Assembly (NCBI RefSeq): GCF_002834295.1
Contig: NZ_PISP01000001.1
Location: forward strand, 1,240,001-1,304,000
Direction: 5' to 3'
From: Rhodohalobacter barkolensis
Lineage (GTDB): Bacteria; Bacteroidota; Rhodothermia; Balneolales; Balneolaceae
DNA: 64,000 bases
The translations under genes and the position numbers were made by a program. Below are positions 2,707 through 7,270 of the stretch, in pieces (position 1 is the stretch's first letter; each line of letters starts with the position of its first letter). The notes under the pieces were generated by a model. It did not search any database. It was not told the origin of the DNA and worked only from the letters and a program-made list of their open reading frames with translations.

Positions 2707-2889
2707 ATGAGCAGAATCGAACAAGTTAAAAACATGGTTGCTGAACTGGAAGACGACATGAATAAGTTTTACGAGAAGGGAAATAAAGCAGCCGGAACAA
2801 GAGCGCGTAAGCAATTGCAAGAGCTCAAAAAAGTTTCTCAAGAAATTCGTCTTGAAATCCAGGATATGAAAAATTCCGGTAAGGTTTAA
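2707..2889 (+). CDS. Histone H1-like (Hc1 family) nucleoid protein
   Basis: This small basic, helical protein (60 residues) matches the Hc1/histone H1-like family common in Bacteroidota. It has a regular heptad-like helix, a central basic GNKAAGTRARK stretch (about residues 26-36), and a second Lys/Arg-rich helix ending in IQDMKNSGK. Members are abundant nucleoid-associated proteins thought to compact DNA. The gene is monocistronic, with a consensus promoter, a strong AAAGGAG ribosome site 6-7 bases before the ATG, and a strong terminator 20 bases after the stop. This fits high expression. The DNA-binding role is inferred from the family. Confidence 0.85.
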   Translation: MSRIEQVKNMVAELEDDMNKFYEKGNKAAGTRARKQLQELKKVSQEIRLEIQDMKNSGKV

Positions 2890-3046: not shown

Positions 3047-3118
3047 TCCTCGGTAGCTCAGTGGCAGAGCAGTTGACTGTTAATCAATTGGTCGTAGGTT
3101 CGAATCCTACCCGGGGAG
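3047..3118 (+). tRNA. tRNA-Asn (GTT)
   Basis: The cloverleaf can be folded by eye. The acceptor TCCTCGG pairs with CCGGGGA (one G-T pair), the D arm contains AGCTCAGTGGCAGAGC, the anticodon loop CTGTTAA has GTT at 3079-3081, and the T arm is GTAGGTTCGAATCCTAC. The discriminator is G at 3118 and the terminal CCA is not encoded. The gene has its own promoter and terminator. A broken copy of its 3' part lies about 320 bases downstream. Confidence 0.95.
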
Positions 3119-3121
3119 CAC

Positions 3122-3160
3122 AAAGCCGATCAACGTAAGTTGGTTGGCTTTTTTTGTTTT
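3122..3160 (+). terminator. Terminator after tRNA-Asn
   Basis: AAAGCC...CAAC pairs with GTTG...GGCTTT around a GTAA loop, with a few internal mismatches, and a long T-run follows. It ends exactly where the GIY-YIG start codon begins. Confidence 0.75.
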
Positions 3161-3433
3161 ATGAAATACTACCTTTACATACTCCAATCAAAAGTCAAAG
3201 AAACCTACTATGTAGGAATGTCCAATGATCCGGACAGACGACTTCACTTTCATAATACAGACAATAGAAAAGCACACACCAGTCGATATCGTCCATGGAA
3301 GATCGCTTATTCACATCCTTTAGAATCAAAAAAAGAAGCTATAGCAGCAGAAAGCAAGGTAAAAAGCTGGAAAAGTAAGAAGATGATCCGGCTGCTTATT
3401 GAAGATGTAATTAACATTGAAGATTATCTATAA
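3161..3433 (+). CDS. GIY-YIG nuclease-domain protein (UPF0213/YhbQ-like)
   Basis: This 90-residue single-domain GIY-YIG protein has the two beta-strand motifs YLYIL and YYVGM at about residues 4-20, the catalytic-type Arg in DPDRRLHFH (about residue 27), and the Glu in EAIAAESKVK (about residue 65). The ATG at 3161 is chosen because the family starts with MKYYLYIL; an upstream in-frame GTG would lie inside the tRNA terminator. Such small proteins are thought to be DNA structure-specific or repair-type nucleases, but their role in Bacteroidota is unproven. The gene sits between an intact tRNA-Asn and a broken copy of it, and would be expressed only by read-through or a very short leader. The placement suggests arrival or duplication at the tRNA. 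Confidence 0.85.
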   Translation: MKYYLYILQSKVKETYYVGMSNDPDRRLHFHNTDNRKAHTSRYRPWKIAYSHPLESKKEAIAAESKVKSWKSKKMIRLLIEDVINIEDYL

Positions 3434-3456
3434 TCTGGCAGAGCAGTTGACTGTTA

Positions 3457-3474
3457 CTCCGACAGCTGTCGGAG
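3457..3474. repeat. 18-bp perfect palindrome inside the tRNA remnant
   Basis: CTCCGACAGCTGTCGGAG is a perfect 18-bp palindrome that replaces the 3' side of the anticodon stem and the variable region of the tRNA copy. Confidence 0.85.
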
Positions 3475-3483
3475 CGTAGGTTC

Positions 3484-3501
3484 TCCCGAAAACTTTCGGG
3501 A
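3484..3501. repeat. Second 18-bp palindrome inside the tRNA remnant
   Basis: TCCCGAAAACTTTCGGGA has 8-bp perfect arms and a 2-base centre. It replaces the T-loop of the tRNA copy. It has the same length as its neighbour but a different sequence. Confidence 0.85.
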
Positions 3502-3529
3502 CTACCCGGGGAGCCACTTATACTTAATG

Positions 3530-3568
3530 TGCGAACATTGATTTTTTCAGAGTTCGCATTTTTTATTT
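3530..3568 (+). terminator. Terminator after the tRNA remnant
   Basis: TGCGAAC pairs with GTTCGCA around a 15-base loop, followed by TTTTTTATTT. Confidence 0.7.
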
Positions 3569-3855: not shown

Positions 3856-4725
3856 ATGGATCTATATGAACTGCAATTATCGAATCCTGAACTATTTCCA
3901 CAGTTTTCTTTAAAAGACACTTTGGTTTTATACTATAATTGTCCGCAGCGAGACAAGATAATGCAGCTCTACTCCAAGCATATACAGATTCACTTTACTT
4001 TAAGTGGGAAACGGATTCAGAAGCACGGTAATCACAGATGGGTGTTCAGCCCAAAGAAAGGCGGGCTTTTAAAAAAATGTGCTTTTTTACAGGAACTTCC
4101 TGCCGACTATAGTGGATGGGAGACCATGGTATTCTATCTGAAAGATGACTACCTGCGGTCTGTATTTGAAGAGTTCAGGCCATATTTATCCATGAGCGGT
4201 TTACCTGAACCGAATAAAGTAATGACCGAAATGTTCGAGATTGACGAACAGATCAGGAGCTGCTATAAAAGCTTTCTCCCCTATTTTGGAAATACCAAGC
4301 CACTGCCTGAAACACTCCTTGAAAGCAAATTCAAAGAGCTGCTCTTTAATATTTTCTCCCACCCCGATAACAAACACATTCTCGCATATATTCTGAAAAT
4401 CGTTGATCGCTATCAAACCCCGGTTTGGGAAGTGATGGAAGAGAACTTTATGTTCGATCTGAAGATTCAGGATTATGCCAATATTGCCAATCGAAGTTTA
4501 TCCACGTTTAAACGGGATTTTAAAAAGCACTATCAAACCACCCCGGGAAAATGGCTTGTAAACCGTCGGCTTCAAAAGGCAAAAGCCTTTTTGGAGACAA
4601 CCGATAAACCGATCAGTGATGTGGCCTATGAGTGCGGGTTTAAAAACAGGTCACACTTCAGCAGAGTATTTAAGAAAAAATTTAATTCCTCTCCTTCTCA
4701 CTTTCAGAAACACTCAACGAACTAA
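3856..4725 (+). CDS. AraC-family transcriptional regulator, first of a tandem pair
   Basis: This 289-residue cytosolic regulator has an unassigned N-terminal sensor region (about 1-170) and a C-terminal AraC double helix-turn-helix (about 190-285). The second helix-turn-helix is unmistakable: ISDVAYECGF then SHFSRVFKKKF. The N-terminal domain is of the ExsA-like AraC type and shows no ligand motif that can be read by eye. It is about two-thirds identical along its whole length to the next gene, 48 bases downstream, so the pair is a tandem duplication. Downstream lie two duplicated SnoaL-like proteins, an oxidase and a TonB receptor, which are plausible targets by position only. Confidence 0.88.
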   Translation: MDLYELQLSNPELFPQFSLKDTLVLYYNCPQRDKIMQLYSKHIQIHFTLSGKRIQKHGNHRWVFSPKKGGLLKKCAFLQELPADYSGWETMVFYLKDDYLRSVFEEFRPYLSMSGLPEPNKVMTEMFEIDEQIRSCYKSFLPYFGNTKPLPETLLESKFKELLFNIFSHPDNKHILAYILKIVDRYQTPVWEVMEENFMFDLKIQDYANIANRSLSTFKRDFKKHYQTTPGKWLVNRRLQKAKAFLETTDKPISDVAYECGFKNRSHFSRVFKKKFNSSPSHFQKHSTN

Positions 4726-4773: not shown

Positions 4774-5646
4774 ATGGACCTGTATGAAGCGCAAATATCG
4801 AACCCGGATCTGTTTCAACAATTTTCGTTGAAAGACACACTTTTTTTGCATTATTCCTGCCCTCAGAGAGAAAAAGTTCTGCAACTCTATTCTAAGTACA
4901 TTCAGTTTAATTTTACTCTGAGCGGGAAACGAATTCTGAAACAGGGAAGTGACAGATGGGTGGCTAACCCGGATAACGGTTTAATCATCAAAAAGTGTGC
5001 TTTTATGCAGGAATTACCAGACGATTACGAAGGATGGGATGTGCTTATTTTTTACCTGAGAGATAACTATCTCAGATCCTTATTTGAAGAATTCAGACCG
5101 CATTTATCCCTGACAGACTTGCCGGAGCCAAATAAAATTATGTTTGAACCATTTGCAATTGACGAGCACATCAGAAATGGTTATCAAAGTTTTATACCCT
5201 ACATCCTCGAGAATAAAACTCTGCCAGACAACGTATTTGAAAACAAATTCAAAGAATTACTTTTCAACATTTTATCCCACCCGCAGAACAAACACATACT
5301 GGCATACATCCAAAGGATTACAGAACACTATCAGGCTGCAATTTGGGAGGTCATGGAGGCCAATTACATGTATGATTTAAAAATCCAGGACTTCGCAAAT
5401 ATTGCCAATCGAAGCTTATCCACGTTCAAACGGGAATTTAAAAAGCATTACAAAACTTCTCCCGGAAAATGGCTCACAGACAGACGTCTAAAAAGAGCAG
5501 AAAGTATGTTGCGTTCCGGAAATAAATCCATCAGTGAAGTGGCCTTTGATTGCGGATTTAAAAATTCGTCGCACTTCAGCAGAGTGTTCAGGGAAAAATT
5601 CAGCCTCTCTCCTTCCCAGTATCAGAAAAACTGGACCAATAAGTAA
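4774..5646 (+). CDS. AraC-family transcriptional regulator, second of a tandem pair
   Basis: This 290-residue paralogue of the preceding gene has the same domain order: an N-terminal sensor-like region, then the AraC double helix-turn-helix near 195-285 (ISEVAFDCGF, SHFSRVFREKF). Conserved blocks include the opening MDLYE-Q-SNP-LF-QFSLKDTL and the linker IQDFANIANRSLSTFKREFKKHY. The main divergence is in the middle of the sensor domain (residues 95-150), which could alter ligand or partner choice. The gene follows its twin after 48 bases without a visible terminator, so they are probably co-transcribed. Confidence 0.88.
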   Translation: MDLYEAQISNPDLFQQFSLKDTLFLHYSCPQREKVLQLYSKYIQFNFTLSGKRILKQGSDRWVANPDNGLIIKKCAFMQELPDDYEGWDVLIFYLRDNYLRSLFEEFRPHLSLTDLPEPNKIMFEPFAIDEHIRNGYQSFIPYILENKTLPDNVFENKFKELLFNILSHPQNKHILAYIQRITEHYQAAIWEVMEANYMYDLKIQDFANIANRSLSTFKREFKKHYKTSPGKWLTDRRLKRAESMLRSGNKSISEVAFDCGFKNSSHFSRVFREKFSLSPSQYQKNWTNK

Positions 5647-5810: not shown

Positions 5811-6311
5811 GTGATGAACACTTTATTTAAAATTTTTCTTATATGGACCCTGCTCTTCAGTTTGGGACTCACGACACTTCAGGCTCAATCTTCAGATGGT
5901 ATTATGACAGAATACCCCGAAGAACAAGCTGAAATATTGCAAACATGGGATGAAATTGTTGAAAGCATTAAAGCCGGCGACATAGATAAATTAATCTCAT
6001 TTCATGCGTACGGCCCTAAGTTTACTGAGTTTAAACAGGGCGCACCCCGAAACGGCGGAGAGGAAAACGAGGCCTTTGAACGAGGAGTATTTGGAAGTGT
6101 ACAGGAAGTTGTAAAAATGGACGGAAATGATATGAAGGTGGCGGTTTATTATGGGAATGTAGCCGTTGTAACGTTTCATTCAGATTTTCATTTACAGTTT
6201 GAAGATGAGATGGCCGTGGTGAATGACCAGATCAGTCTGGTGTTTGTTAAAAACAGTTCGGGTGATTGGAAAATTGTGCATGAGCATCACTCCCCTCTGA
6301 ATGCGGGGTAA
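5811..6311 (+). CDS. Secreted SnoaL/NTF2-like (DUF4440-type) protein
   Basis: This 166-residue protein has a Sec signal peptide (hydrophobic 5-22, cleavage after TLQA) and a single NTF2-like cone domain. The opening helix EEQAEILQTWDEIVESIKAGDIDKLISFH and the closing strand DWKIVHEHHSPLN are typical of SnoaL/DUF4440 domains. No catalytic residues are assigned in this superfamily, which includes both enzymes and ligand-binding proteins. Over the mature domain it is roughly three-quarters identical to the product of 6749-7270, but that protein has a lipobox while this one looks soluble in the periplasm. Its substrate is unknown. Confidence 0.8.
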   Translation: MMNTLFKIFLIWTLLFSLGLTTLQAQSSDGIMTEYPEEQAEILQTWDEIVESIKAGDIDKLISFHAYGPKFTEFKQGAPRNGGEENEAFERGVFGSVQEVVKMDGNDMKVAVYYGNVAVVTFHSDFHLQFEDEMAVVNDQISLVFVKNSSGDWKIVHEHHSPLNAG

Positions 6312-6748
6312 AAATGTAACCATAAAAATAGACCTCCAAGCGTTGCCGGTGCGATGGTACAAGCTGAGTTTTCCGGTAAGAGTTTTTCCGGTATGATTAC
6401 TCTGCAAAACGGCCTCTCTCTCGTTTCTTTAAGGCGAGTTCAAATTCCGGCACGTTGACCGATGTTTCGGGTGTATGGAGAAGAGGCTGAAAAAGAAGGT
6501 ACTTTGCATAGAATTTTACAACCTAGCCAATTATTTCTCCTTCCCAATCAAAATAATGAGCGCTGGGTTTCAATTGAGCGTTTTTTATAGAACGAAGAGG
6601 ATCAATATCAATCATTAACATGAATGGGTGATAAACAGAATTTCAAGACAAAAAACCAATACAGTAATCCTGAGAGAATTCGTCACGCGATTACAGATTA
6701 AACAGGCACACAATGTGCCAACACGACAACAACAAACAAGGAGAAACC
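6312..6748. other. Intergenic region between the two SnoaL-like genes
   Basis: No gene was recognised over 437 bases. There is a direct repeat of TTTTCCGGTA around 6370-6393. A short hairpin plus T-run (CGCT ... AGCG TTTTTT, about 6565-6588) could end the first gene's transcript. A ribosome site, AAGGAG, precedes the ATG at 6749. Confidence 0.4.
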
Positions 6749-7270
6749 ATGAAACCACTCAATATTATACCCTTAATACTCATAGCAGGCCTTATTTTTG
6801 GGTGCGAATCAACCACTTCAAGCACTGAAGATACTGAGGATCCTTCACCTGAAGATGTTTTAAAGAAAGAATACCAGGATGAACAAGCTGAAATTTTACA
6901 AACATGGGACGAAATTGTAGAAAGCGTAGAAGAAGGTGATATAGACAAATTAATTTCATTCCATGGTTACGGCCCAAAGTTTACTGAATTTAAACAGGGT
7001 GCACCCCGCAATGGCGAAGAGCAGAACGAAGCTTTTGAACGCGGAGTTTTTGGAAGCGTTACAGAAGTTGTAAAAATGGACGCGAATGAAATGAAAATTG
7101 CGGTTTATTATGAGAATGTAGCCATTGTGACCTTCCATTCTGATTTTCATTTGATGTTTGGAGAAGACCTTGCTGTTATCAATGAGCAGGAAACCTTAGT
7201 GTTTGTCAAAACGGAAAATGGTGAATGGAAAATTGTGCACGAGCATCATGCACCTCTGAATGCGGAGTAA
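6749..7270 (+). CDS. SnoaL/NTF2-like lipoprotein, paralogue of the preceding gene
   Basis: The start at 6749 is chosen over an upstream in-frame ATG (6713) because AAGGAG lies just before it and the protein then opens with a proper lipoprotein signal (MKPLNIIPLILIAGLIFGC, lipobox Cys19). A short acidic Ser/Thr linker (about 20-38) leads into the NTF2-like domain, which matches the neighbour almost block for block (QAEILQTWDEIVES, YGPKFTEFKQGAPRNG, EAFERGVFGSV, WKIVHEHHAPLNAE). The pair therefore gives one soluble and one membrane-anchored form of the same fold. Function is unknown. The oxidase gene begins 108 bases downstream. Confidence 0.8.
   Translation: MKPLNIIPLILIAGLIFGCESTTSSTEDTEDPSPEDVLKKEYQDEQAEILQTWDEIVESVEEGDIDKLISFHGYGPKFTEFKQGAPRNGEEQNEAFERGVFGSVTEVVKMDANEMKIAVYYENVAIVTFHSDFHLMFGEDLAVINEQETLVFVKTENGEWKIVHEHHAPLNAE

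Follow-up and report, generated by a model that had tools for sequence, protein, structure and literature searches.

A functional tRNA-Asn gene, a small gene for a GIY-YIG nuclease and an incomplete second copy of the same tRNA gene lie in this order on the forward strand of a 64,000-nucleotide stretch of the Rhodohalobacter barkolensis genome (hereafter the window), with a terminator behind each tRNA copy (Table 1). The source genome comprises 3.6 Mb, and the genus also includes Rhodohalobacter halophilus (G019). The structure given in a preliminary description of this DNA, a tRNA-Asn and a GIY-YIG gene followed by a mosaic tRNA copy with two 18-bp hairpins, is confirmed in the sequence. The short ORF upstream encodes a lysine-rich product and is a stable syntenic neighbour of tRNA-Asn in the genus, with homologues at eight of the nine congener loci compared.

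Table 1. Features of the tRNA-Asn locus (window positions) and tRNA-associated copies of the TCCCGA hairpin family in the source genome.
Feature	Position	Strand	Basis
Conserved 60-aa ORF; flank outside the cassette, syntenic anchor of the tRNA-Asn locus	2707..2889	+	ORF list
Intact functional tRNA-Asn(GTT)	3047..3119	+	ARAGORN; Rfam RF00005, 71.8 bits
T-loop GTTCGAATC of intact tRNA-Asn, matching SegB motif RAWTSGAAC; absent from relic	3098..3106	-	Motif match
Terminator T2, cassette-side, abutting the 3' end of intact tRNA-Asn; also in the G009 cassette	3120..3160	+	Sequence, locus comparison
GIY-YIG nuclease, 90 aa, catalytic residues kept	3161..3433	+	PF01541, ATG at 3161
Relic tRNA-Asn copy, tRNA positions 16-73, two blocks replaced	3436..3514	+	Sequence, alignment
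Hairpin 1, replacing the anticodon 3' half-arm and variable region	3457..3474	.	Sequence, folding
Hairpin 2, replacing T-loop/T-stem bases 56-60	3484..3501	.	Sequence, folding
Terminator T1 behind relic, the original host terminator	3517..3568	+	Directly follows tRNA-Asn in G008, G011, G016
TCCCGA copy	window relic		
TCCCGA copy, at second tRNA-Met copy	C1:1783665		
Four TCCCGA copies at tRNA-Leu(GAG); three inside two relics, one ~150 bp upstream of the relics	C3:200153-200499		

The relic begins 2 nt past the stop codon of the nuclease gene and lacks tRNA-Asn positions 1-15. Its first block, TGGCAGAGCAGTTGACTGTTA (3436-3456), corresponds to positions 16-36; hairpin 1, CTCCGACAGCTGTCGGAG, then stands for positions 37-46 (ATCAATTGGT), a second block, CGTAGGTTC (3475-3483), supplies positions 47-55, hairpin 2, TCCCGAAAACTTTCGGGA, stands for positions 56-60 (GAATC), and the last block, CTACCCGGGGAGC (3502-3514), supplies positions 61-73. 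All three tRNA blocks are identical to the corresponding parts of the intact gene, in agreement with the earlier statement that they keep their order and sequence. The palindromes had also been said to replace tRNA sequence and not merely to interrupt it; this holds for both exchanged intervals, except that the second takes five T-loop and T-stem bases instead of the whole T-loop. Hairpin 1 is a perfect palindrome and hairpin 2 a 7-bp stem with a 4-nt loop; folded as RNA, each gives a 7-bp stem and a 4-nt loop, with energies of -10.7 and -9.1 kcal/mol that were equalled by 0/200 and 5/200 shuffles, respectively. Similar arm replacements are found in congeners, and a near-copy of hairpin 2 is found in G008 (L034), where it lies in the D/anticodon region of the relic. 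When the locus was searched with Rfam, the intact tRNA alone scored above the gathering score; the relic was unmatched, and its identification with a known RNA element was rejected on this basis.

The nuclease matches PF01541 (E 1.3e-17) and carries the hallmarks of the GIY-YIG superfamily, namely the Y, Y-x-G, R and catalytic E residues (Y6, Y17, G19, R27 and E64 are invariant in our alignment) together with the fold. UPF0213 (BH0048, EF2693) and Slx1 are its closest solved relatives by sequence, and the nearest folds to its AlphaFold model (pLDDT 89). Of ten GIY-YIG domains in the source genome, one resides in a 650-aa UvrC-like frame and nine are small; eight of the nine small genes are located within 500 bp of one of the 38 intact tRNAs. 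A set of 41 related genomes yielded 91 non-redundant GIY-YIG hits, 79 of them preceded by 400 bp of sequence or more, and a same-strand tRNA was found less than 200 bp upstream for 39 of these 79; in eight of the 91 cases the gene is closely followed by a tRNA. That the GIY-YIG gene occupies a tRNA-linked site, as had been suspected, is no accident, since such genes adjoin tRNAs throughout the genus. Moreover, a tree of 82 nuclease proteins sorts by tRNA type (Asn, Gly, Met, Val, Asp, Leu, Pro and Ser), requiring 23 changes of tRNA label against a shuffled mean of 51.5, a value as low as which was reached by 0/200 shuffles.

A search of GTDB genomes with the Gly-type query recovered 36 loci, distributed over Balneolota, Flavobacterium (beside tRNA-Ala), Chitinophagaceae (Pro), Pedobacter, Crocinitomicaceae and Glaciecola (Val), Ignavibacteria (Ala), Neomarinimicrobiota (Asp) and Patescibacteria (Met, Glu, Gln, Lys), a cross-phylum spread that is underestimated because Gly-type nucleases alone were used. 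Some tRNA/nuclease partners are likewise hidden, because many of the genomes are drafts with contig ends near tRNAs. Neither two queries of IMG/VR nor a search of phage records with the window protein recovered a relative of the nuclease, and a phage origin was rejected on these grounds. In the searchable, non-subscription literature we came across no account of GIY-YIG cassettes linked to tRNAs in the chromosomes of bacteria.

A comparison of empty and filled sites in relatives had been proposed at the outset, and both states were found, in Flavobacterium as well as in the genus of the window. In Flavobacterium omnivorum, L148 876-2450 aligns colinearly with L169, an empty locus, as far as tRNA-Ala extends (85.6% identity). 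At this point a 327-bp insert, comprising a terminator, the nuclease gene, a short tRNA 5' piece and a hairpin, separates the tRNA from its terminator; past the insert, L148 2779-4330 realigns from tRNA position 45-46, with 84.3% identity to the empty L175 over 1.5 kb. As at tRNA-integrated islands, tRNA positions 45-75 are duplicated on either side of the insert, whose boundaries are ambiguous within this 31-bp duplication. Terminator T1 stands behind the tRNA in empty Flavobacterium sites and behind the relic in filled ones, while T2, which follows the intact tRNA in filled sites, is common to cassettes of different species. Two further Flavobacterium loci (L133, L136) keep, on the left side, the tRNA 3' half alone, starting from the anticodon loop or at most 2 nt off. 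In the case of the window, 3505-3578/3605 matches the 3' end of the tRNA together with the terminator in L026, L034 and L019, where the upstream gene is syntenic with that of the window and no nuclease is found directly behind the tRNA; the genome containing L019 (G016) has a nuclease-plus-relic unit ~4 kb away. Two features of intronless homing endonucleases are present here, a presence/absence polymorphism at the presumed target locus in relatives and a nuclease gene beside that presumed target. Neither a tyrosine nor a serine recombinase is encoded between the window tRNA and the relic, where the nuclease is the sole ORF of at least 60 aa. Several Flavobacterium have a recoded T-stem in the intact 3' half, which is absent in Balneolaceae; a 'recoded rescue', in which the intact 3' half would always be unlike the relic, was rejected for its failure in the latter family.

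Relic copies recur across a set of 64 cassettes, defined as a tRNA followed by a nuclease within 250 bp. A copy of the same tRNA was detected downstream in 34/64 cassettes and upstream in 17/61, all counted copies scoring above the maximum of a mismatched-tRNA control (40.3). The 5' end is missing in downstream relics and the 3' end in many upstream ones. When downstream and upstream relic windows were widened by 40 nt to take in adjacent hairpins, a GC-rich hairpin was present in 42/50 relics, as compared with 7.2% of control windows, and 31 of the 42 were of the form TCCCGA..TCGGGA. The hairpin usually stands in place of the anticodon arm. The entire arm is replaced in Ala (Flavobacterium), Val (Glaciecola, Pedobacter), Met (Gracilibacteria) and Pro relics, its 5' half in Gly relics and most of it in Asp relics; in Asn and Met relics the exchange covers its 3' half and the variable region. 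In Leu relics the variable arm is exchanged; the T arm or its loop can also be replaced, and occasionally the D loop. The 22-nt sequences of Ser relics are clean insertions, found in the anticodon loop and, within the T loop, at TTC/GAA. Across L053, L056, L084, L101, L103 and L109 these 22-nt inserts are CCCCAAAGGGATCCCTTCGGGA and variants, located in the anticodon, T (TTC/GAA) or D loop. T-loop inserts of ~54 nt or longer were noted in Leu and Asn relics (L057, L059, L086, L019:530-590); bounded by CCTGCC(T)../..GGCAGG-like arms, they constitute a further kind of hairpin element in this position.

An identical 22-nt hairpin, TCCCGATGCATAGCAATCGGGA, is found in Val cassettes of Glaciecola amylolytica, a gammaproteobacterium (L151:2760-2800), and of a Crocinitomicaceae MAG (L143:2760-2800), a match that suggests cross-phylum transfer of the Val cassette. 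Relics can also be repeated, as in the three tandem units of leader plus 5' tRNA part upstream of tRNA-Gly in L085, and tandem nuclease units are found in L078, L052 and L165. In a Gracilibacteria MAG (L142:2300-2975) the T-loop of a tRNA-Met relic is immediately followed by the nuclease start codon, and two identical relic units, a young-looking tandem array, lie between the nuclease gene and the intact tRNA-Met. The hairpin relic is not obligatory, since 30/64 cassettes, such as the Val cassette of the source genome, have no recognisable one downstream; conversely, hairpin relics without a matching nuclease occur, for example at tRNA-Asn in G001, G002, G008, G013 and G020. On account of these two classes of exception, the link between nuclease and hairpin is statistical rather than absolute.

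The exact 18-mers CTCCGACAGCTGTCGGAG and TCCCGAAAACTTTCGGGA each have a single copy in the source genome. A mobile palindrome propagating as exact copies was consequently rejected, and the family is defined by stem and position instead of by identical copies. Even with relaxed spacers, CCCGAAA-n-TTTCGGG and TCCGACA-n-TGTCGGA occur twice each in 3.6 Mb; this rarity, together with the same replacement in congeners, argues that the window hairpins are not due to chance. The TCCCGA-n-TCGGGA family, represented by TCCCGANNNNNNTCGGGA, has 12 copies in the source genome against 0 for a reversed control, and is present in 26/41 relatives, in which the control is almost nil. The inner stem pair is complementary (A-T, C-G or T-A) in 44/53 listed copies, so compensatory change preserves the stems. 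Of the 12 copies, six are found at three tRNA loci, in or a few hundred bp from tRNA copies (Table 1), and several others occupy the loop of another palindrome, CTGTCAG...CTGACAG, a distribution in line with the proposed preference for tRNA-like hairpins. Nested palindromes of this kind were also seen far from tRNAs at L074:2215-2313, L070:1711 and L123:2021, where palindromes of the TCCCGA or TTCCGACA type fall exactly within the loop formed by CTGTCAG..CTGACAG or CTTTCAG..CTGAAAG. Alignments contain relic positions both with and without a hairpin; no empty/filled pair at strain level was found for a palindrome outside tRNAs. A mobile palindrome family, as originally suggested, is supported insofar as the TCCCGA family recurs, whereas the empty and filled sites best support the ~330-bp cassette, and not the 18-bp palindrome, as the mobile unit.

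Several known systems share individual traits with these loci. Rickettsia palindromic elements are palindromic inserts of 100-150 bp, some of them in RNA genes; the hairpins described here are likewise palindromic inserts in RNA-gene sequence, but at 16-22 bp they fall outside that size range and they reside in non-functional tRNA copies. The small dispersed repeats (SDR) of Nostoc, as reportedly described by Elhai in 2008 and cited in PMC3116915, are very short hairpins with compensatory changes that nest in other repeats. The TCCCGA hairpins are also very short, dispersed, nested and subject to compensatory stem changes, but they are concentrated in nuclease-side tRNA leftovers and often replace an arm rather than insert into it. 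Slx1 acts on branched DNA and, unlike the cassette nuclease, is eukaryotic, works with Slx4 and has extra domains. REP/REPIN sequences, too, are short palindromes near a nuclease-type gene (PMC3116915), but their partner, RAYT, is a Y1 HUH transposase associated with GTAG-tagged palindromes, whereas the gene found here is of the GIY-YIG type and the palindromes are low in copy number and inside tRNA copies. Elements integrated at tRNAs are known to leave tRNA fragments (PMC9897764). The islands of tyrosine integrases resemble the cassettes in that, on insertion, the tRNA is made whole again and a second copy of its 3' half arises as a direct repeat; the cassettes differ in their size of ~330 bp, in carrying a nuclease instead of a recombinase and in the hairpins of the leftover.

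The closest experimental precedent is SegB, a free-standing GIY-YIG homing endonuclease of T4/T6 encoded beside tRNA genes (PMC13096335; PMC2988022). Its cuts fall within tRNA genes and cause tRNA segments to be amplified in tandem (PMC13096335). The cassette nuclease is likewise of the GIY-YIG type and encoded beside tRNA genes. In contrast to SegB, the cassettes are located in bacterial chromosomes and were not found in the phage collections searched, their nuclease is a catalytic domain alone of 80-90 aa that forms tRNA-type-specific clades, and they exhibit a duplicated tRNA half and hairpin-replaced arms. The T-loop of the intact tRNA-Asn matches RAWTSGAAC, a cleavage-enhancing motif of phage T6 SegB (PMC13096335), a match that is suggestive only; with eight occurrences in the window against 8.5 expected, the motif is common by chance and was rejected as proof of cutting.

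Comparison of these loci at the level of sequence establishes linkage, tRNA-type-specific clades, an insertion polymorphism with a duplicated 3' half, recurrence and covarying hairpin stems. The reading that we favour, with somewhat better than even confidence, is that of a minimal mobile GIY-YIG cassette that targets tRNA genes in a homing-like manner, SegB-like in logic, and leaves behind a hairpin-marked leftover. The mobile unit would consist of a tRNA 3' half, a terminator, the GIY-YIG gene, a short tRNA 5' piece and a hairpin, ~330-360 bp in all, and would enter a tRNA gene at or just past the anticodon arm. The carried 3' half would complete the host 5' half, yielding an intact tRNA with its promoter preserved, and the host's original 3' half and terminator would be pushed behind the nuclease gene to become the leftover. 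The nuclease would cleave tRNA genes at the anticodon and/or the T arm, either like SegB or structure-selectively like Slx1; as the AlphaFold model is near UPF0213 and the branched-DNA nuclease Slx1, recognition of cruciform tRNA arms is possible. Repair of the break from a filled copy would then spread the cassette, as in intronless homing. Least certain are the steps concerning the hairpin, which may mark the repaired cut site and remove the nuclease target from the leftover, the T-loop hairpin representing a second such repair event. The hairpin could be a repair scar, could keep the leftover from being cut again, or could be a tiny mobile element in its own right with a preference for hairpin loops. 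Against the cassette model stand the putative target still present in the intact tRNA of a filled site, the cassettes that lack a downstream relic, the hairpin relics without a matching nuclease, palindrome and nuclease counts that do not follow each other across genomes, and the ambiguous insertion boundaries. The window relic is best explained as what a cassette insertion left at the tRNA gene; the two later insertions into a tRNA fragment that had been envisaged are not supported.

The main rival is that the palindromes are mobile on their own, a position it owes to the entry of other hairpin kinds into the same loops and to the TCCCGA hairpins in the loops of non-tRNA palindromes. Two independent things would then coincide, tRNA-side nuclease genes and SDR-like mini-palindromes that invade or replace hairpin loops anywhere, the nuclease not being their mover; we consider this rather unlikely but a serious contender, and give similar weight to its corollary that tRNA leftovers, being hairpin-rich and dispensable, collect palindromes. 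It would account for the variety of sequences accepted by the same loops (TCCCGA.., TCCGCC..GGCGGA, TCACGC..GCGTGA, the 22-nt CCCCAAAGGGATCCCTTCGGGA in Ser, ~54-nt inserts in Leu), for the frequent location of TCCCGA hairpins outside tRNAs within CTGTCAG[..]CTGACAG, for the near-identical hairpins of G008 and the window, which occupy different positions in the two relics, and for palindrome counts per genome that do not track nuclease number (16 and 1 in G013, 2 and 7 in G012). It fits less well with the same TCCCGA stem in nuclease-cassette relics of distant phyla, as if travelling with the cassette, with the 22-nt hairpin shared by the Glaciecola and Crocinitomicaceae Val cassettes, or with the source genome, where relics accompany 5/11 tRNAs of nuclease-linked types but 1/27 others (hypergeometric P ~0.005).

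An improbable third account is that the nuclease is kept for amplifying tRNA copies through breaks, as SegB of phage T6 does experimentally (PMC13096335), with relics and hairpins as scars or silencers of the surplus and nothing selfish involved. The tandem arrays in L085 and L142 and the tandem nuclease units would suit it, but most loci have one intact copy, hence no net gain in tRNA dose, and the hairpins are left unexplained. That the relics are adjacent copies of the same tRNA would also follow from ordinary tandem duplication and point-mutation decay, a process we regard as extremely unlikely: the window relic is identical to the intact gene outside its hairpins, covarying hairpins take over blocks at matching places across species and tRNA types, the insert has its own terminator and nuclease, and empty sites exist. 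Block replacements and empty sites refute such decay as the main process. The preliminary description had expected palindromes confined to this locus, and relatives showing this decay, if no mobile family were involved; the two 18-mers are indeed unique in the genome, but their family is not, and the relatives show no decay of that kind.

By the comparisons made here, the GIY-YIG cassette with hairpin-marked leftovers is widespread and tRNA-type-specific, the window locus being one case of a general system, and the evidence points to very small mobile DNA of a type so far undescribed, which integrates at tRNA genes and keeps them intact. Homing endonuclease elements of the free-standing kind are already known from tRNA genes; the hairpin replacement is possibly categorically new. 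If the cassette reading is true, these would be among the smallest mobile elements with their own nuclease gene, carried by several bacterial phyla, aimed at essential and highly conserved tRNA genes and yet harmless on insertion. Such elements would join three separate puzzles, namely the small GIY-YIG genes found as orphans, arrays of tRNA pseudogenes and dispersed palindromes of very short length, and would provide a testable enzyme candidate for the spread of 18-bp palindromes. A bolder version, which we put forward as doubtful, would make the tRNA-type-specific nucleases of several phyla a new class of chromosomal selfish elements that break tRNA genes and rescue them with the carried half, a natural cleave-and-rescue system, exchanging a tRNA arm for a generic TCCCGA-n-TCGGGA hairpin and also seeding hairpins elsewhere.

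Two pairs of adjacent paralogues lie just downstream of the locus in the window, encoding AraC-like regulators (3856-4725 and 4774-5646) and secreted nuclear-transport-factor-like proteins (5811-6311 and 6713-7270).
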